Shown: in pieces, positions 8,663-30,200 of the stretch | How positions within the stretch are numbered: position 1 is the stretch's first letter | Layout of the letters: every line of letters starts with the position of its first letter | Origin: Tenericutes bacterium MO-XQ | GTDB lineage: Bacteria; Bacillota_I; Bacilli_A; Acholeplasmatales; Acholeplasmataceae | Assembly (NCBI GenBank): GCA_002838185.1 | Contig: CP017948.1 | Span: 1 to 64,000 of the forward strand | Direction: 5' to 3' | DNA length: 64,000 nt | Translations under genes and position numbers: made by a program | Notes under the pieces: generated by a model | What the model was told of the DNA's origin: nothing | Seen by the model: the letters and a program-made list of their open reading frames with translations, nothing else | The model's database searches: none

Positions 8663-8683
8663 TTAAATAATTTAATAAAACGA

Positions 8684-8820
8684 ACTATCAAGAAGACGGG
8701 AGAGATATAGCTCTATGAACGTCTACCAACCGGTTTAATTACAAGGTGGTAATGCTATAAACGATGGAAATATAAATCATAAAAAGGTTTCTGTCGAAAG
8801 ATAGAGACTTTTATGTTTAT
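8684..8820 (+). ncRNA. SAM-I (S-box) riboswitch leader upstream of metN
   Basis: The leader carries the S-box core in order: CTATCAAGA, a GACG/CGTC stem enclosing GGAGAGATATAGCTCTATGAA, then CAACCGGTT and AAGGTGGTAATGC. A downstream hairpin (AAAGGTTTCTGTC, loop GAAA, GATAGAGACTTT, about 8784-8812) ends in TTTTAT and could be the regulatory terminator. S-box RNAs bind S-adenosylmethionine and turn off methionine genes when it is abundant. The downstream operon is a methionine importer, which fits. The exact P1 pairing was not resolved by eye. Confidence 0.85.
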
Positions 8821-16864: not shown

Positions 16865-16874
16865 ATAAGTAACA

Positions 16875-17085
16875 CGTAAGAAAGATAAGTAATATATCAT
16901 TTGTTTGATAGAGAGAACACGGTTGGTGAAAGTGTTTAAACAAAAGTATATGAATCTACTTTCCTAGTGATGCTAATCACATCCGTAAATCTGCGTTAAA
17001 GATTAAATTAAAGTGCTAGGGGTAACCTAGAACTAAGGTGGTACCGCGAACTTTCGTCCTTAGACATCATGTCTAGGGACTTTTT
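16875..17085 (+). ncRNA. T-box leader of serS (serine specifier)
   Basis: The leader has the conserved T-box sequence AACTAAGGTGGTACCGCG at 17031-17048. A terminator follows: GTCCTTAGAC (17056-17065) with GTCTAGGGAC (17071-17080) and TTTTT. In Stem I, GAA-TCT-AC at 16952-16959 fits the usual specifier-loop pattern, which makes the specifier UCU (serine). Uncharged tRNA-Ser would stabilise the antiterminator and allow serS transcription. The specifier is read by pattern, not by folding. Confidence 0.93.
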
Positions 17086-24916: not shown

Positions 24917-24945
24917 TTTATATCAATGGTTGATTGTGCTATAAT
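24917..24945 (+). promoter_or_regulatory. Promoter for spoVG
   Basis: TTTATA (24917-24922), 17-base spacer, TATAAT (24940-24945) with TGC upstream (extended -10). Confidence 0.75.
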
Positions 24946-24978
24946 TTAGATATAAAATATAGCGTCTTGGAGGGCACA

Positions 24979-25251
24979 ATGAAGATAACAGATGTTAGAG
25001 TTAAAGCAGTTCAAAGCGAAAGTAGATTAAGAGGAGTAGCAACAATTACTTTTGATGAAAGTTTTGTTGTGCATGACATTAGAATCATCGAAGGTGAGAA
25101 TGGTTTGTTTGTCGCAATGCCAAGTAAAAAGACTCCAAATGGAACTTTTAGAGACATCGCACACCCAATCCATGGTGAAATGAGAAAACTCATCGAAGAT
25201 GCAATTGTCCAAGCTTATAACGAGTTATTAGAAAACGGACAAGAAGAATAG
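24979..25251 (+). CDS. spoVG: SpoVG family regulator
   Basis: SpoVG is a small nucleic-acid-binding regulator. The 90-residue product from ATG 24979 is typical: KITDVRVKAVQSESRLRGVA, FVVHDIRIIEGENGLFVAMP, and DIAHPIHGEMR. A longer frame opens at 24934, but TTGGAGGG sits just ahead of 24979 and the upstream part overlaps the promoter. This lineage neither sporulates nor has a wall, so a post-transcriptional role is likely. Two terminators follow. Confidence 0.95.
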   Translation: MKITDVRVKAVQSESRLRGVATITFDESFVVHDIRIIEGENGLFVAMPSKKTPNGTFRDIAHPIHGEMRKLIEDAIVQAYNELLENGQEE

Positions 25252-25404: not shown

Positions 25405-25456
25405 TATGTAAATTATAAATAAGATGCATGAATCTTATGTGATTGGGGGTCTTTAC

Positions 25457-27760
25457 ATGAAAAAGGTTATATTATTCATTCAAATAGGTATTATTTTATA
25501 CTTACTACAGGGATGTGGGTTATTTTCTAATAATATCAGTAACGCACCGATCATTGTCGGTGATGAAATCATAACTCTTGAAGAGAATCAAACTTACCCA
25601 GATTGGAAATCATTTATTACAATTTCAGATGAAGAAGACGGAACTATCTTAGTCACTGATGAAATGATTGACGCAACGGATGTAAATCTTTCACAAGCAG
25701 GCACTTATTATGTGATTTATACTGTTGAAGACTCTGATGGCAATGCATCTATGTTTACTTTACAAGTAGATGTCATCATGCCTGAATATCAATATGCACA
25801 AGGTTCATATGATTTATCACATTTAGATGGTTCATCAAAAGCTATCATATATAATGCTATGGAAAATTATCTACTTGAACATATGATTGGTGGAGTTCCT
25901 CTTTATAGACTGACGGAGTTTTATATGTATTCAGATAGAGTAGATTTATTTAGCGATACATATAATGCAGTTTATGGATTTGGACATGATTTTTCAAGAT
26001 TACTTGAAGATGACTCTCATGTACTTATGGATGCTCTAAACAACGGAGAGCAAAACGAGTTCACTTTCAGATCAACTTATGTATATGATATGGAAAGTGA
26101 CATGTGGAATCCATATGAATCAGAAATGTATCACGGTATATCTGATTATATTCATGGATCATTATATACTTATGAAATTGATGAATCATTATCAGGTTTT
26201 AATTACAAAGAAGAACTTGCTAAAACATTACCGATTGCAGTTAATAGTCTAACAATCGATGGTGAAACATACGCTAACACTTGGCAAATCCCTGTCAAAG
26301 ATGATTTGGTTTGGTCATTTCATCCAGATACAAACACATCGCTTTTACCAAATCAATATCAAGAGCTTGATGCTAGTGATTTCTTATGGACATGGCAAAT
26401 AGCTATCAAAAATGATTGGTTTAGAGCTATCTCTGGAGGAAATGATTTTATTTCTAGTGGTATCTTGAATGCACAAGATTATGATATGGGACTCTTGACT
26501 GATATAAATCAAGTTGGCTTACGCTTAGCTTTAGATAAAGATAACACATTAGAAATTGAGTTTGAAGAAGCTAAAACTTATGATGAAGTTATCTATATGT
26601 TTGCACAAAAAGATAAAAGTCCATTAAATAAAGAACTTTATGATTATGTAATTGATCATACATCATCACCTTTTGGAACAACTCCTCAAACAATCGCTAG
26701 TTCAGGACCGTATATTCTTGATGAGATTGACTCAAATCAAACAGTAAAATTAATTAAAAACGAAAATTATGTATATGAAGCTTCATATCATTACACAGGA
26801 CTTCAACTGAGATTAATGGATGAAGATGAAGCGTTTCTAGCATTTTTAAATGATGAGCTAGATATGGCCCATGTACCTAGGACATTAGCTAGTGATTATT
26901 TAGATGATCACAGGATGAAAGGTGTAGAAACTTATACAACTTTTAGATTATTGATTAATGGCTTCTCTTCAAACGAAGAAAGAGATGATTACTTTAATTT
27001 TGATGAACTCCCACAAAATTATAGAAACTGGGAGTTAGAACCTATATTACAATACAAAGAAATGAAACAAGCGCTCTATTATAGTATTGATCGACTTCAG
27101 TTTAGTAATATTTATTCACCAGCATATACTTATTTCCCAAATCACTATATCTTAGATGTTGATGGTACATCAATATACGAAGGATCAACAGGAGAGGATT
27201 TACTTAACCTATATAACCAGAATAGTTTTGATGTAGAAAAAGCTCAACAATTTTTCCATGAAGCAATTGAAAAATCGATTTTAGATGGTTATTATGCAGA
27301 AGGCATACAAAACGCTTCAGAAGAAAATCCGTTTTATATAAACATTGAACTCACATACAGTGAAGTAGAGATTTTGCACTACAACGAATTGATTGCATCT
27401 TTAGCATCACAACTCGAAACAAACTTGTTTGATGATCAGTTACATGTTGGTGTGGATATTATATTAAATCCGGTATCATTCCCTTCAGTCTATTATGATT
27501 ATATAAATATTGCGCAAACTGATTTGGCTATTGGTGGCTTATCAGGGATGAGTATACCTCAAGATTTAAATCAATTTAGAGATGATTATAAGATGTATCC
27601 TCTTAATTTTGGTATTGACACTTCATCAGCAAATATTGAGATCAAATATATGAATTTAGAAGGTAATTATGTTTATGAAATATGGTCTTTTAATGCAATG
27701 TGTGAAGCATTAATGGGGGAAGTCGAAGTGACAGAAGGTTTATTAGGTGATAATAATTAA
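25457..27760 (+). CDS. Lipoprotein with Ig-like N-domain and oligopeptide-binding (family 5) domain
   Basis: This 767-residue protein has a lipoprotein signal with lipobox LQGC (Cys20). Residues of about 28-110 look like a DUF5011-type Ig-like domain (VGDEIITLEENQTYPDW ... GTYYVIYTVEDSDGN). The rest resembles family-5 solute-binding proteins, with TIASSGPYILDEIDSNQTVK, then MKQALYYSIDRLQFSN and later DVEKAQQFFHEAIE. These capture oligopeptides or similar ligands. No permease or ATPase genes are adjacent, so its transporter partner is elsewhere or absent. The start is ATG 25457 after GGGGGT, not ATG 25424. Confidence 0.8.
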   Translation: MKKVILFIQIGIILYLLQGCGLFSNNISNAPIIVGDEIITLEENQTYPDWKSFITISDEEDGTILVTDEMIDATDVNLSQAGTYYVIYTVEDSDGNASMFTLQVDVIMPEYQYAQGSYDLSHLDGSSKAIIYNAMENYLLEHMIGGVPLYRLTEFYMYSDRVDLFSDTYNAVYGFGHDFSRLLEDDSHVLMDALNNGEQNEFTFRSTYVYDMESDMWNPYESEMYHGISDYIHGSLYTYEIDESLSGFNYKEELAKTLPIAVNSLTIDGETYANTWQIPVKDDLVWSFHPDTNTSLLPNQYQELDASDFLWTWQIAIKNDWFRAISGGNDFISSGILNAQDYDMGLLTDINQVGLRLALDKDNTLEIEFEEAKTYDEVIYMFAQKDKSPLNKELYDYVIDHTSSPFGTTPQTIASSGPYILDEIDSNQTVKLIKNENYVYEASYHYTGLQLRLMDEDEAFLAFLNDELDMAHVPRTLASDYLDDHRMKGVETYTTFRLLINGFSSNEERDDYFNFDELPQNYRNWELEPILQYKEMKQALYYSIDRLQFSNIYSPAYTYFPNHYILDVDGTSIYEGSTGEDLLNLYNQNSFDVEKAQQFFHEAIEKSILDGYYAEGIQNASEENPFYINIELTYSEVEILHYNELIASLASQLETNLFDDQLHVGVDIILNPVSFPSVYYDYINIAQTDLAIGGLSGMSIPQDLNQFRDDYKMYPLNFGIDTSSANIEIKYMNLEGNYVYEIWSFNAMCEALMGEVEVTEGLLGDNN

Positions 27761-27795
27761 TATATGATCACATGAACGATTTTAAAATATAGATT

Positions 27796-27838
27796 AAAAA
27801 AACTCAATTCGATATTTTCGAACTGAGTTTTTATTTTT
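27796..27838. terminator. Bidirectional terminator between the lipoprotein gene and heliorhodopsin
   Basis: AAAAACTCAATTCGA pairs with TTCGAACTGAGTTTTT with one mismatch. T-rich on the + side and, because the left arm starts with A's, also on the minus side. Confidence 0.85.
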
Positions 27839-27857: not shown

Positions 27858-28685
27858 TCAAGGTTGGAAAGCACCGAATAATACTAACCAAGTTAAGATT
27901 GTTTTAGCAACTAATGATAAAACGATATATCCACGTTCACCATATAAGTAATTCTTAAACTTACCAATACCTTTATATTGTAGATACATATTGACAGGGA
28001 ATGTATTAAATGCTAAGAAGTAAGTCACTAAAATAGCCCATACAAATCCAGGAACAGCATCTAAGTTTGGATTTACACCAATATAGAACACGATAGCTAA
28101 CCATGGTGCAATTCCGATTACTGAACCAAAGATGAATGGTAACCAGTTTGTTTTCTTTTCGGTTTTATTTTTACCACTATTTAATAGTTCCATATCTAAA
28201 CCGAAAAGGTTCATAGCAGCATTAGCTAATGCAATTAAAACAAATACTGCAATATCTCTAACGCCAAATAAAGAAGAAATTAAAACGATCATTAAAGAAG
28301 AACTTAATGCATATTCATACCATCTTAGTTTGTTGATACCTTTTTTAAGGTCTGAAACATATTTTTCTTTATAAGGGAAAGCGATAATGAAATGGAAAAT
28401 ACCTGATATGAGTAAGAAACTAGCTGTAAGAGGTAAGAAAGGTAGTTCGAATAGTGTATCAGTTGGTGTAAGAACTAAACCTTGACCTGTGACAAACTCT
28501 AAATAATTTCCAATCACTGGAATGGTAAATGTTTGCGTACCAGTACCATCTAAATTAGGATAAATCAAGAAAGCAAATAACATCATGAGAACACCTTGTG
28601 CTAGATGCACAGAACCCATGATCTTGTTAAAACGAATTAAACTTGGAAATGATAACTTATCATTAACTGTTTTTGCAGAATCCAT
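27858..28685 (-). CDS. Heliorhodopsin
   Basis: This is a seven-helix retinal protein of the heliorhodopsin family, 275 residues. The retinal lysine is Lys261 in YIVLSLVAKTILTW (helix 7). The helix-3 counterion Glu124 lies in LRWYEYALSSSLMIVLI. The two histidines of the Schiff-base pocket are His27 (GSVHLAQG) and His98 (GIFHFIIAF). The family segments YLQYKGIGKF and YLYGERGYIVL are also present. These match the prototype 48C12 from memory. The start at 28685 follows AAAGGAG; a longer frame from 28727 has no ribosome binding site and crosses the -10. The function is unknown in general: no ion pumping is known for most members. It diverges from a MATE gene. Confidence 0.95.
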   Translation of the reverse strand: MDSAKTVNDKLSFPSLIRFNKIMGSVHLAQGVLMMLFAFLIYPNLDGTGTQTFTIPVIGNYLEFVTGQGLVLTPTDTLFELPFLPLTASFLLISGIFHFIIAFPYKEKYVSDLKKGINKLRWYEYALSSSLMIVLISSLFGVRDIAVFVLIALANAAMNLFGLDMELLNSGKNKTEKKTNWLPFIFGSVIGIAPWLAIVFYIGVNPNLDAVPGFVWAILVTYFLAFNTFPVNMYLQYKGIGKFKNYLYGERGYIVLSLVAKTILTWLVLFGAFQP

Positions 28686-28717
28686 AATCAAACTCCTTTG
28701 TTTATAAAATTTCTTTA

Positions 28718-28746
28718 ATTTTATCATAGTTTACTATATCTATCAA
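28718..28746 (-). promoter_or_regulatory. Heliorhodopsin promoter
   Basis: On the minus strand: TTGATA (28746-28741), a 17-base spacer, TAAAAT (28723-28718) with TGA upstream (extended -10). A strong vegetative-type promoter that suggests the gene is expressed. Confidence 0.75.
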
Positions 28747-28847: not shown

Positions 28848-28871
28848 ACATTGGAAATCAGGTGTTTGTTT

Positions 28872-30200
28872 ATGAAAAAATTAGAAAAAAATATATATAA
28901 ATTATCATGGCCAATTTTTATAGAACTATTGTTTTTTACTTTACTAGGTACAGTAGATACAATTATGCTATCAAACTATTCAGATACAGCAGTTGGAAGC
29001 GTTGGGATAGCCAATAGAATTTTATTCTTGTTTGCAATTGTTGTTAATGTGTTAGCGTTAGGTATTGGTGTTGTAGCAGCACAATATTTAGGAGCTAATC
29101 AAGAACAAAAAGCTAAAGATACTGTTGTAACAGGAGTGTTAGGTAACTTCGTATTAGGTATTATACTTTCTCTTATCGTGATGTTTTTTGGTAGAAGTTT
29201 TATACATTTAATTGGAACAGATGATGTGTTTATAGAAGATGCAACAACATATATTAAAATTGTTGGATTTTCACTTTTATTCGTATCCATTCGCGTTGGA
29301 TTATCTAACGCATTTAGAAGTTTTAGTCATCCAAAAGTCGTCATGATGATTATGGGTGTTGGTAATTTAGTTAATGTTGTTGTTAATGCAGTACTTATCT
29401 ATGGCTTATTTGGAGCACCTTCATTAGGTGTTCAAGGAGCAGCAATTGGTACCTTAGTAGCAAGAATTGTCATGGTTTTATTATTAATATATTACTCGTA
29501 TAAATTATTAAAGATTAAGTTACATAAACTAAGATTTCACGTGATTCAACTTAGAAAGATATTATACGTAGGCATACCAGGAGCAACTGAAAATGTTATG
29601 TACAATATTGCTCAAGTGCTCATCTTATTTTTCATTAATCAAATAAGTCCTGAAGCAGTTATCGCTCAGTCATATATTATGCTTATATTATCTTATGTAT
29701 TTATCTTTAGTTTTGCCTTAGCAAGCGGGAACTCTATCATTGTAGGGTATTATATTGGAGAAAAAGACTATGAAGTAGCGTTTAAGCATACATTTAAAAC
29801 AACAAAAATTGCATTTATCTTAATTATAATCATTACAGGTCTGTTAAATGTTTTAGCATATCCGATGATTGGATTATTTACTGATAACCAAGTCATCACT
29901 GAAATGGTAAGAAAAGTTTTATTCATTGCGATATTTATCGAAATCGGACGCGCTATGAATATGATCTTTATTGCAGCATTAAGATCAGCAGGAGATACAA
30001 TATTCCCTGTTATTATGGCTGTTATATCAATGTTTGGTGTTGCCGTTTTATTTACATATATTTTAGCAATTAGATTAGAATTAGGTATTATTGGTGTATT
30101 TATAGCTTTATCTATGGATGAAGTTTTTAGAGGATTATCTATGGTGTTTAGATGGTATCATAGAAAATGGATGAGAATTGAACTTATTGAAGCTAAGTAA
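28872..30200 (+). CDS. MATE family multidrug or toxin efflux transporter
   Basis: This 442-residue polytopic protein has two MatE repeats: NIYKLSWPIFIELLFFTLLG, then DTIMLSNYSD in the first half, and VGIPGATENVMYNIAQVL in the second. MATE proteins export cationic drugs or metabolites using Na+ or H+ gradients. The substrate is not evident. The frame opens at TTG 28851, but AGGTG at 28860-28864 points to ATG 28872. It is divergent from heliorhodopsin across a 186-bp gap holding both promoters. Confidence 0.93.
   Translation: MKKLEKNIYKLSWPIFIELLFFTLLGTVDTIMLSNYSDTAVGSVGIANRILFLFAIVVNVLALGIGVVAAQYLGANQEQKAKDTVVTGVLGNFVLGIILSLIVMFFGRSFIHLIGTDDVFIEDATTYIKIVGFSLLFVSIRVGLSNAFRSFSHPKVVMMIMGVGNLVNVVVNAVLIYGLFGAPSLGVQGAAIGTLVARIVMVLLLIYYSYKLLKIKLHKLRFHVIQLRKILYVGIPGATENVMYNIAQVLILFFINQISPEAVIAQSYIMLILSYVFIFSFALASGNSIIVGYYIGEKDYEVAFKHTFKTTKIAFILIIIITGLLNVLAYPMIGLFTDNQVITEMVRKVLFIAIFIEIGRAMNMIFIAALRSAGDTIFPVIMAVISMFGVAVLFTYILAIRLELGIIGVFIALSMDEVFRGLSMVFRWYHRKWMRIELIEAK

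Follow-up and report, generated by a model that had tools for sequence, protein, structure and literature searches.

What does a heliorhodopsin (HeR) do in a wall-less, Acholeplasma-like bacterium, and where does it obtain its retinal? The question is raised by a minus-strand gene in the 64,000-nucleotide stretch that was analysed here (the window), which comprises positions 1 to 64,000 of contig CP017948.1 of Tenericutes bacterium MO-XQ, a genome referred to below as G000. An earlier note, made from the sequence alone, had read this gene as an intact, expressed heliorhodopsin and had called it unexpected in a streamlined, host-associated genome. The gene and its surroundings are as follows.

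24934..25251, plus strand: spoVG, the left edge of the HeR insertion site
25424..27760, plus strand: gene for a lipoprotein with SBP_bac_5 and Ig-like domains, convergent with HeR
27790..27835, minus strand: hairpin with a T-run behind it (-17.1 kcal/mol, z = -6.9), in the gap where the HeR gene and the solute-binding-protein gene converge; a probable (bidirectional) terminator
27858..28685, minus strand: HeR gene ("type A"), 275 aa, with retinal lysine K261, counterion E124 and pocket histidines H27 and H98
28686..28700, minus strand: ribosome binding site AAAGGAG, 7 nt 5' of the HeR ATG at 28685
28718..28746, minus strand: candidate promoter-like site, TTGATA-17-TAAAAT, its -10 preceded by TG
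28851..30200, plus strand: MATE efflux gene, divergent from HeR

The window protein is a genuine heliorhodopsin (type-3 rhodopsin). It matched the Pfam family PF18761 with E=1.2e-84 and 283.9 bits (cut-off 26.7) and the NCBIfam equivalog NF038020, 'heliorhodopsin HeR', with 263.7 bits (cut-off 100), and its sequence matches in the PDB were HeRs only, with about 38-40% identity to the solved structures. Residues H27, H98, E124, S257 and K261 are invariant, both in an alignment of 13 HeRs and in one of 75. Set against TaHeR, a Thermoplasmatales HeR (6is6; the PDB entry 7clj is its E108D mutant), E124 in helix 3 falls on the counterion Glu and K261 on the Schiff-base lysine, and S257 and K261 form the SxxxK motif of helix 7. 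The AlphaFold (AF2) model (pLDDT 88) had its best matches in TaHeR 7u55/6is6, with TM-scores of 0.84 by query and 0.92-0.94 by target, and also superposed on HeR 48C12, while type-1 and other rhodopsins reached about 0.5-0.6. Family profiles, PDB matches and fold thus bear out the identity given in the earlier note, the alignments do the same for its Lys261, Glu124, His27 and His98, and a tree placed the protein within a clade with 100/100 support (type A). The window protein shares with TaHeR and 48C12 the seven helices, the beta-strands in the A-B loop, the retinal lysine, the Glu counterion, the pocket His, the SxxxK motif and a monoderm host; it differs from them in belonging to this separate, well-supported clade. 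Sequence and model imply the inverted topology of HeRs, with the N-terminus predicted to be cytoplasmic. A viral origin was rejected, as viral contigs yielded no relative.

The host, in turn, is less peculiar than the earlier note had supposed. Its wall-less state was upheld: the PBP transpeptidase domain PF00905 was absent from G000 and from the rest of its genus, although the search did match in three relatives from the order and in 10 of the 14 control genomes. As an Acholeplasma-like genome without PBP transpeptidase, G000 is of the monoderm kind expected for HeRs. A streamlined, host-associated life, by contrast, found no support, given a genome of 2.16 Mb, closest HeR homologues (84-89% identical) in metagenome-assembled Izimaplasma and Acholeplasma-like bacteria of environmental type, and reports of free-living Acholeplasmataceae, with cultured isolates of brackish-lake and mud-volcano origin (PMC11122141). 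Nor can the gene be called unexpected, as PF18761 matched in 33 of the 101 relatives' genomes. Within the bacterial family of G000 the matches number about 28 among some 60 genomes, or about half of those searched. The window gene is a further member of a known HeR family that is common in this bacterial family and no oddity, and automatic annotation would already name it heliorhodopsin. No paper pairing heliorhodopsin with Acholeplasma, Tenericutes or tocopherol cyclase was found in the incomplete literature collection that was searched.

With regard to the limits of the gene, an alternative, longer frame would start at 28727. The ATG at 28685 is the better start, because AAAGGAG stands 7 nt ahead of it and the more distal ATG shares bases with the -10 proposed in the note; the start and good ribosome binding site proposed before are therefore retained. 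Of the strong promoter claimed for the gene, the TTGATA-17-TAAAAT site with its TG does exist, but sites of this kind are as frequent in shuffled sequence (9 counted versus 7.6 +/- 2.8 in shuffles) and are no evidence by themselves, so promoter strength was discarded as a sign of HeR expression. Two RNA elements were also seen elsewhere in the window, a T-box leader at 16874-17064 (111 bits) and a SAM riboswitch at 8682-8770 (49 bits).

That the gene is maintained was evident from the sister genome G003. Between the HeRs of G000 and G003, dS was 0.72 and dN/dS 0.028, equal to the dN/dS of the nearby essential prs (0.027), while ksgA, pth and ispE had higher values than HeR. With this divergence and a ratio like that of an essential gene, the window HeR is under strong purifying selection and has been maintained since the G000/G003 split, which also confirms that the gene is intact. 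Elsewhere, HeR pseudogenes with in-frame stops occur in complete or near-complete relatives (G037:C36, G051:C8 and G074:C1:1280732-1281283), and HeR is split over two frames in G030. Such broken copies indicate that decay is possible within the family, though it is absent in G000.

Comparison within the genus revealed that the HeR of G000 and G003 is a replacement, a point missed by the earlier reading, as was its horizontal transfer. In G001, G002 and G004 a type B HeR (HeR-B) lies between a photolyase gene on the opposite strand and a tocopherol-cyclase-like (TC) gene on its own strand, followed by pta and buk on the photolyase strand. G000 and G003 have the same gene order with HeR-B missing: photolyase and TC are separated by a gap of 220 bp, and tblastn detected no HeR remnant. 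The vacated slot between the photolyase and TC genes is found at about 1.970-1.9725 Mb of G000:C1, and the TC gene itself is the following feature.

G000:C1:1971553-1972503 (L037:9554-10504): TC gene, PF14249, unnamed by NCBIfam, AttH-like fold

The type A HeR of G000 and G003 is solitary and located between spoVG and the MATE/prs genes, near dnaA in G000. At this site spoVG directly adjoins HeR in G003, directly adjoins prs in G002 and G004, where there is no HeR, and adjoins MATE in G001, again with no HeR between. The lipoprotein gene at 25424-27760, between spoVG and HeR, is missing in G003, which marks a further recent insertion here. Both the SBP_bac_5 lipoprotein and MATE were rejected as conserved HeR partners because their adjacency to HeR is not kept.

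Relative to the type B HeRs of G001, G002 and G004, which belong to the same family, are about 55% identical and apparently have the same role, the window HeR is a xenologue at another site. In the tree, the type A clade mixes Acholeplasmatales, Izimaplasma and MAGs of other Bacillota. The window protein is 89% identical to the HeR of G101 and 86% identical to those of G103 and G067, while Mfd of G000 is only 44, 49 and 51% identical to that of G101, G103 and G067, respectively; for comparison, the HeR-Bs of G002 and G041 are 68% identical and the Mfd proteins of G000 and G041 58%. Given this discrepancy and the mixed clade, horizontal transfer of type A HeR between distant lineages is the simplest account. 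The loss of the original type B HeR and its replacement by a distant type A is thus one strong case in G000/G003. G055, from another genus, is probably a second: it has crtB and TC on opposite strands without crtI and HeR, and HeR-A elsewhere, in a genome that is 85% complete. A tally of three independent replacements was cut to these two, as the slot had seemingly been empty already in the family to which G067 belongs (G072, G082, G090). Types A and B occurred together in none of the family genomes examined, type C coexists with either, and type A occupies the conserved block itself in genus g10; types A and B therefore look interchangeable. Type C is divergent, about 45% identical to the window HeR and on a long branch (L047 in G001, L046 in G055, L054 in G049 and L158 in G044).

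The earlier note had also asked for a genome-wide search for carotenoid genes, and this yielded no route of retinal synthesis. Phytoene synthase had no match anywhere in G000, while the same search matched in 24 relatives and 7 controls. It is absent from all five genomes of the genus, all five of which have HeR, and from 16 of the 32 HeR genomes. RPE65 and Lycopene_cyc were absent from G000 and from all 101 genomes, with matches in controls, and Blh/BCD gave no match above cut-off in 101 relatives, 344 genomes of the phylum or the controls, so that this last search had no positive control and carries no weight; the argument stands on phytoene synthase. The lone Amino_oxidase protein of G000 was ruled out as CrtI by its score (59.5 bits versus a cut-off of 238). 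G000 is unable to make carotenoids, and from this we infer that the retinal of the window HeR is taken up from outside. Retinal auxotrophy in a rhodopsin-bearing bacterium has been documented or proposed for Luna-1 Actinomycetota (PMC12422013), which resemble G000 in having a rhodopsin without the means of making retinal. Those bacteria, however, lack blh and usually still have crtB, while in G000 there is not even a phytoene synthase.

To see which genes accompany HeR, we clustered all genes near 94 heliorhodopsins. Many family genomes have a conserved block in which class II photolyase, DUF92, an unnamed membrane protein, crtB and crtI lie on one strand and HeR followed by Tocopherol_cycl (PF14249) on the other. 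Around the 94 HeRs, photolyase was the commonest neighbour (21 loci), while the TC gene shared the HeR strand at every one of its 19 loci (19/19) and lay no more than 400 bp away at 17 of them. A TC gene was present in 27 of 32 HeR genomes as opposed to 8 of 69 without HeR (101 genomes; the statistic ignores relatedness), and within the family, taken as G000-G060, in 24 of 29 HeR genomes as opposed to 1 of 32 others. The TC and HeR genes are also next to each other in a MAG of the Clostridia (L112). The close type A homologues L057 and L060 have neighbours of quite another kind, Na+/H+ antiporters among them. In Tenericutes MAGs, two HeR genes of different types were seen with only a few kb between them (L065:4195-8828 and L108:4200-8828), and L072 contains a row of HeR gene fragments.

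A second kind of rhodopsin was noted in a sister genus, g10, of the same family. This is a type-1 rhodopsin with an NDQ motif in helix 3 (RYLNWLIDVPMLLIQ), found at loci L144 and L146 (G040:C9 and G035:C1) and also in G013, G026 and G044, whose best PDB matches are sodium-pumping rhodopsins (3x3b, 8e-63; 8jh0, deposited as a xanthorhodopsin, 3e-69). Its gene is convergent with those for V/A-type ATPase subunits D and B. Should it prove to be a light-driven sodium pump, its position next to a rotary ATPase would be a notable find for an Acholeplasma-like lineage.

The reading that we prefer, although we give it no better than an even chance, is that the window HeR serves as a light-dependent regulator whose likeliest partner would be a class II photolyase and whose effect would be to enhance the repair of photodamage. 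Retinal scavenged from outside would bind K261, light would isomerise it, and the slow photocycle would alter the cytoplasmic face of HeR, which in turn would modulate a soluble partner. Among candidates for this partner, the class II CPD photolyase kept by G000 at the old slot is the likeliest, with the TC protein (AttH/CrtC-type fold) as a possible second component; the output would be a light-dependent boost of photodamage repair rather than energy capture. A precedent exists in Trichococcus flocculiformis: a class II photolyase bound by its HeR (TfHeR) becomes about three times as active, and its activity extends to green light (PMC9769723). As in that system, the host is of the Gram-positive type, and in relatives HeR recurrently neighbours a class II (phr2-like) photolyase. 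G000 retains such a photolyase, which matched TIGR00591 (phr2) over its full length with 1.2e-140 and 470 bits, below the NCBI curated cut-off of 550. Unlike for TfHeR, the window HeR and photolyase genes, which are together in sister genomes, are far apart. HeR-A is solitary and about 126 kb from photolyase and TC if the 2.07-Mb contig is circular, so there is no operon link in G000, and this speaks against the photolyase as partner.

A tentative alternative, appreciably less probable, makes TC itself the partner, with HeR as a photosensor and TC as a soluble, lipocalin-related protein for the capture, processing or delivery of retinal, or for signal output. No gene is tied to HeR as tightly, to judge from the strand, distance and family counts and from the Clostridia MAG. 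TC is moreover kept in 5 of 5 genomes of the genus though none has phytoene synthase, so that it cannot rely on home-made carotenoid, and its AF2 model (pLDDT 87) matches AttH and the related enzymes Fsa2 and kievitone hydratase. These matches are weak, however (TM 0.5-0.6), in a fold that hosts many chemistries; TC also occurs without HeR in G072, G048, G090 and others, and it evolves fast, with 76% identity between G000 and G003 versus 97% for HeR. That HeR regulates a different neighbour or an unrelated target through direct protein contact, for example the MATE pump next to it or some membrane enzyme, seems improbable. This reading could draw on the divergent MATE gene, which has the intergenic region in common with HeR in both G000 and G003, and on reports that OcHeR regulates an ABC exporter and AbHeR a glutamine synthetase (PMC11109279, PMC9529153), but MATE holds this position in G001 with no HeR next to it and does not adjoin HeR in G055, G067 and L057. 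Given such reported partners, glutamine synthetase and an ABC transporter, HeR function may differ between lineages.

Two further accounts are very unlikely. Light-driven ion transport has been reported for V2HeR3 (PMC9448325), yet this is a viral HeR, ion pumping is undemonstrated for HeRs in general (PMC8612252), and the window protein has the usual residues of bacterial HeRs. That the gene is a recently transferred passenger without function, for example for want of retinal, would suit a solitary, horizontally moved HeR in a host without retinal synthesis and with broken HeR genes in the relatives G037, G051 and G074; we nonetheless consider it highly improbable, since selection has kept HeR as strictly as the essential prs since G000 and G003 separated.

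The HeR was exchanged while photolyase and TC were kept, which points to a conserved function that outlasted the exchange and to two named candidate partners. A bolder proposal, on which we would place little weight at present, is that TC might be a dedicated and so far unrecognised HeR partner in Bacillota, for signal output or the handling of retinal, and might enable wall-less retinal auxotrophs to work with borrowed retinal, with the two HeR types interchangeable. The genus amounts to a natural experiment, with HeR in 5 of 5 genomes, the ability to make carotenoids in 0 of 5 and a swapped copy in 2 of 5. What is new is the natural swap together with the strongly linked TC gene, and with these the function of HeR becomes testable in a small, wall-less cell.
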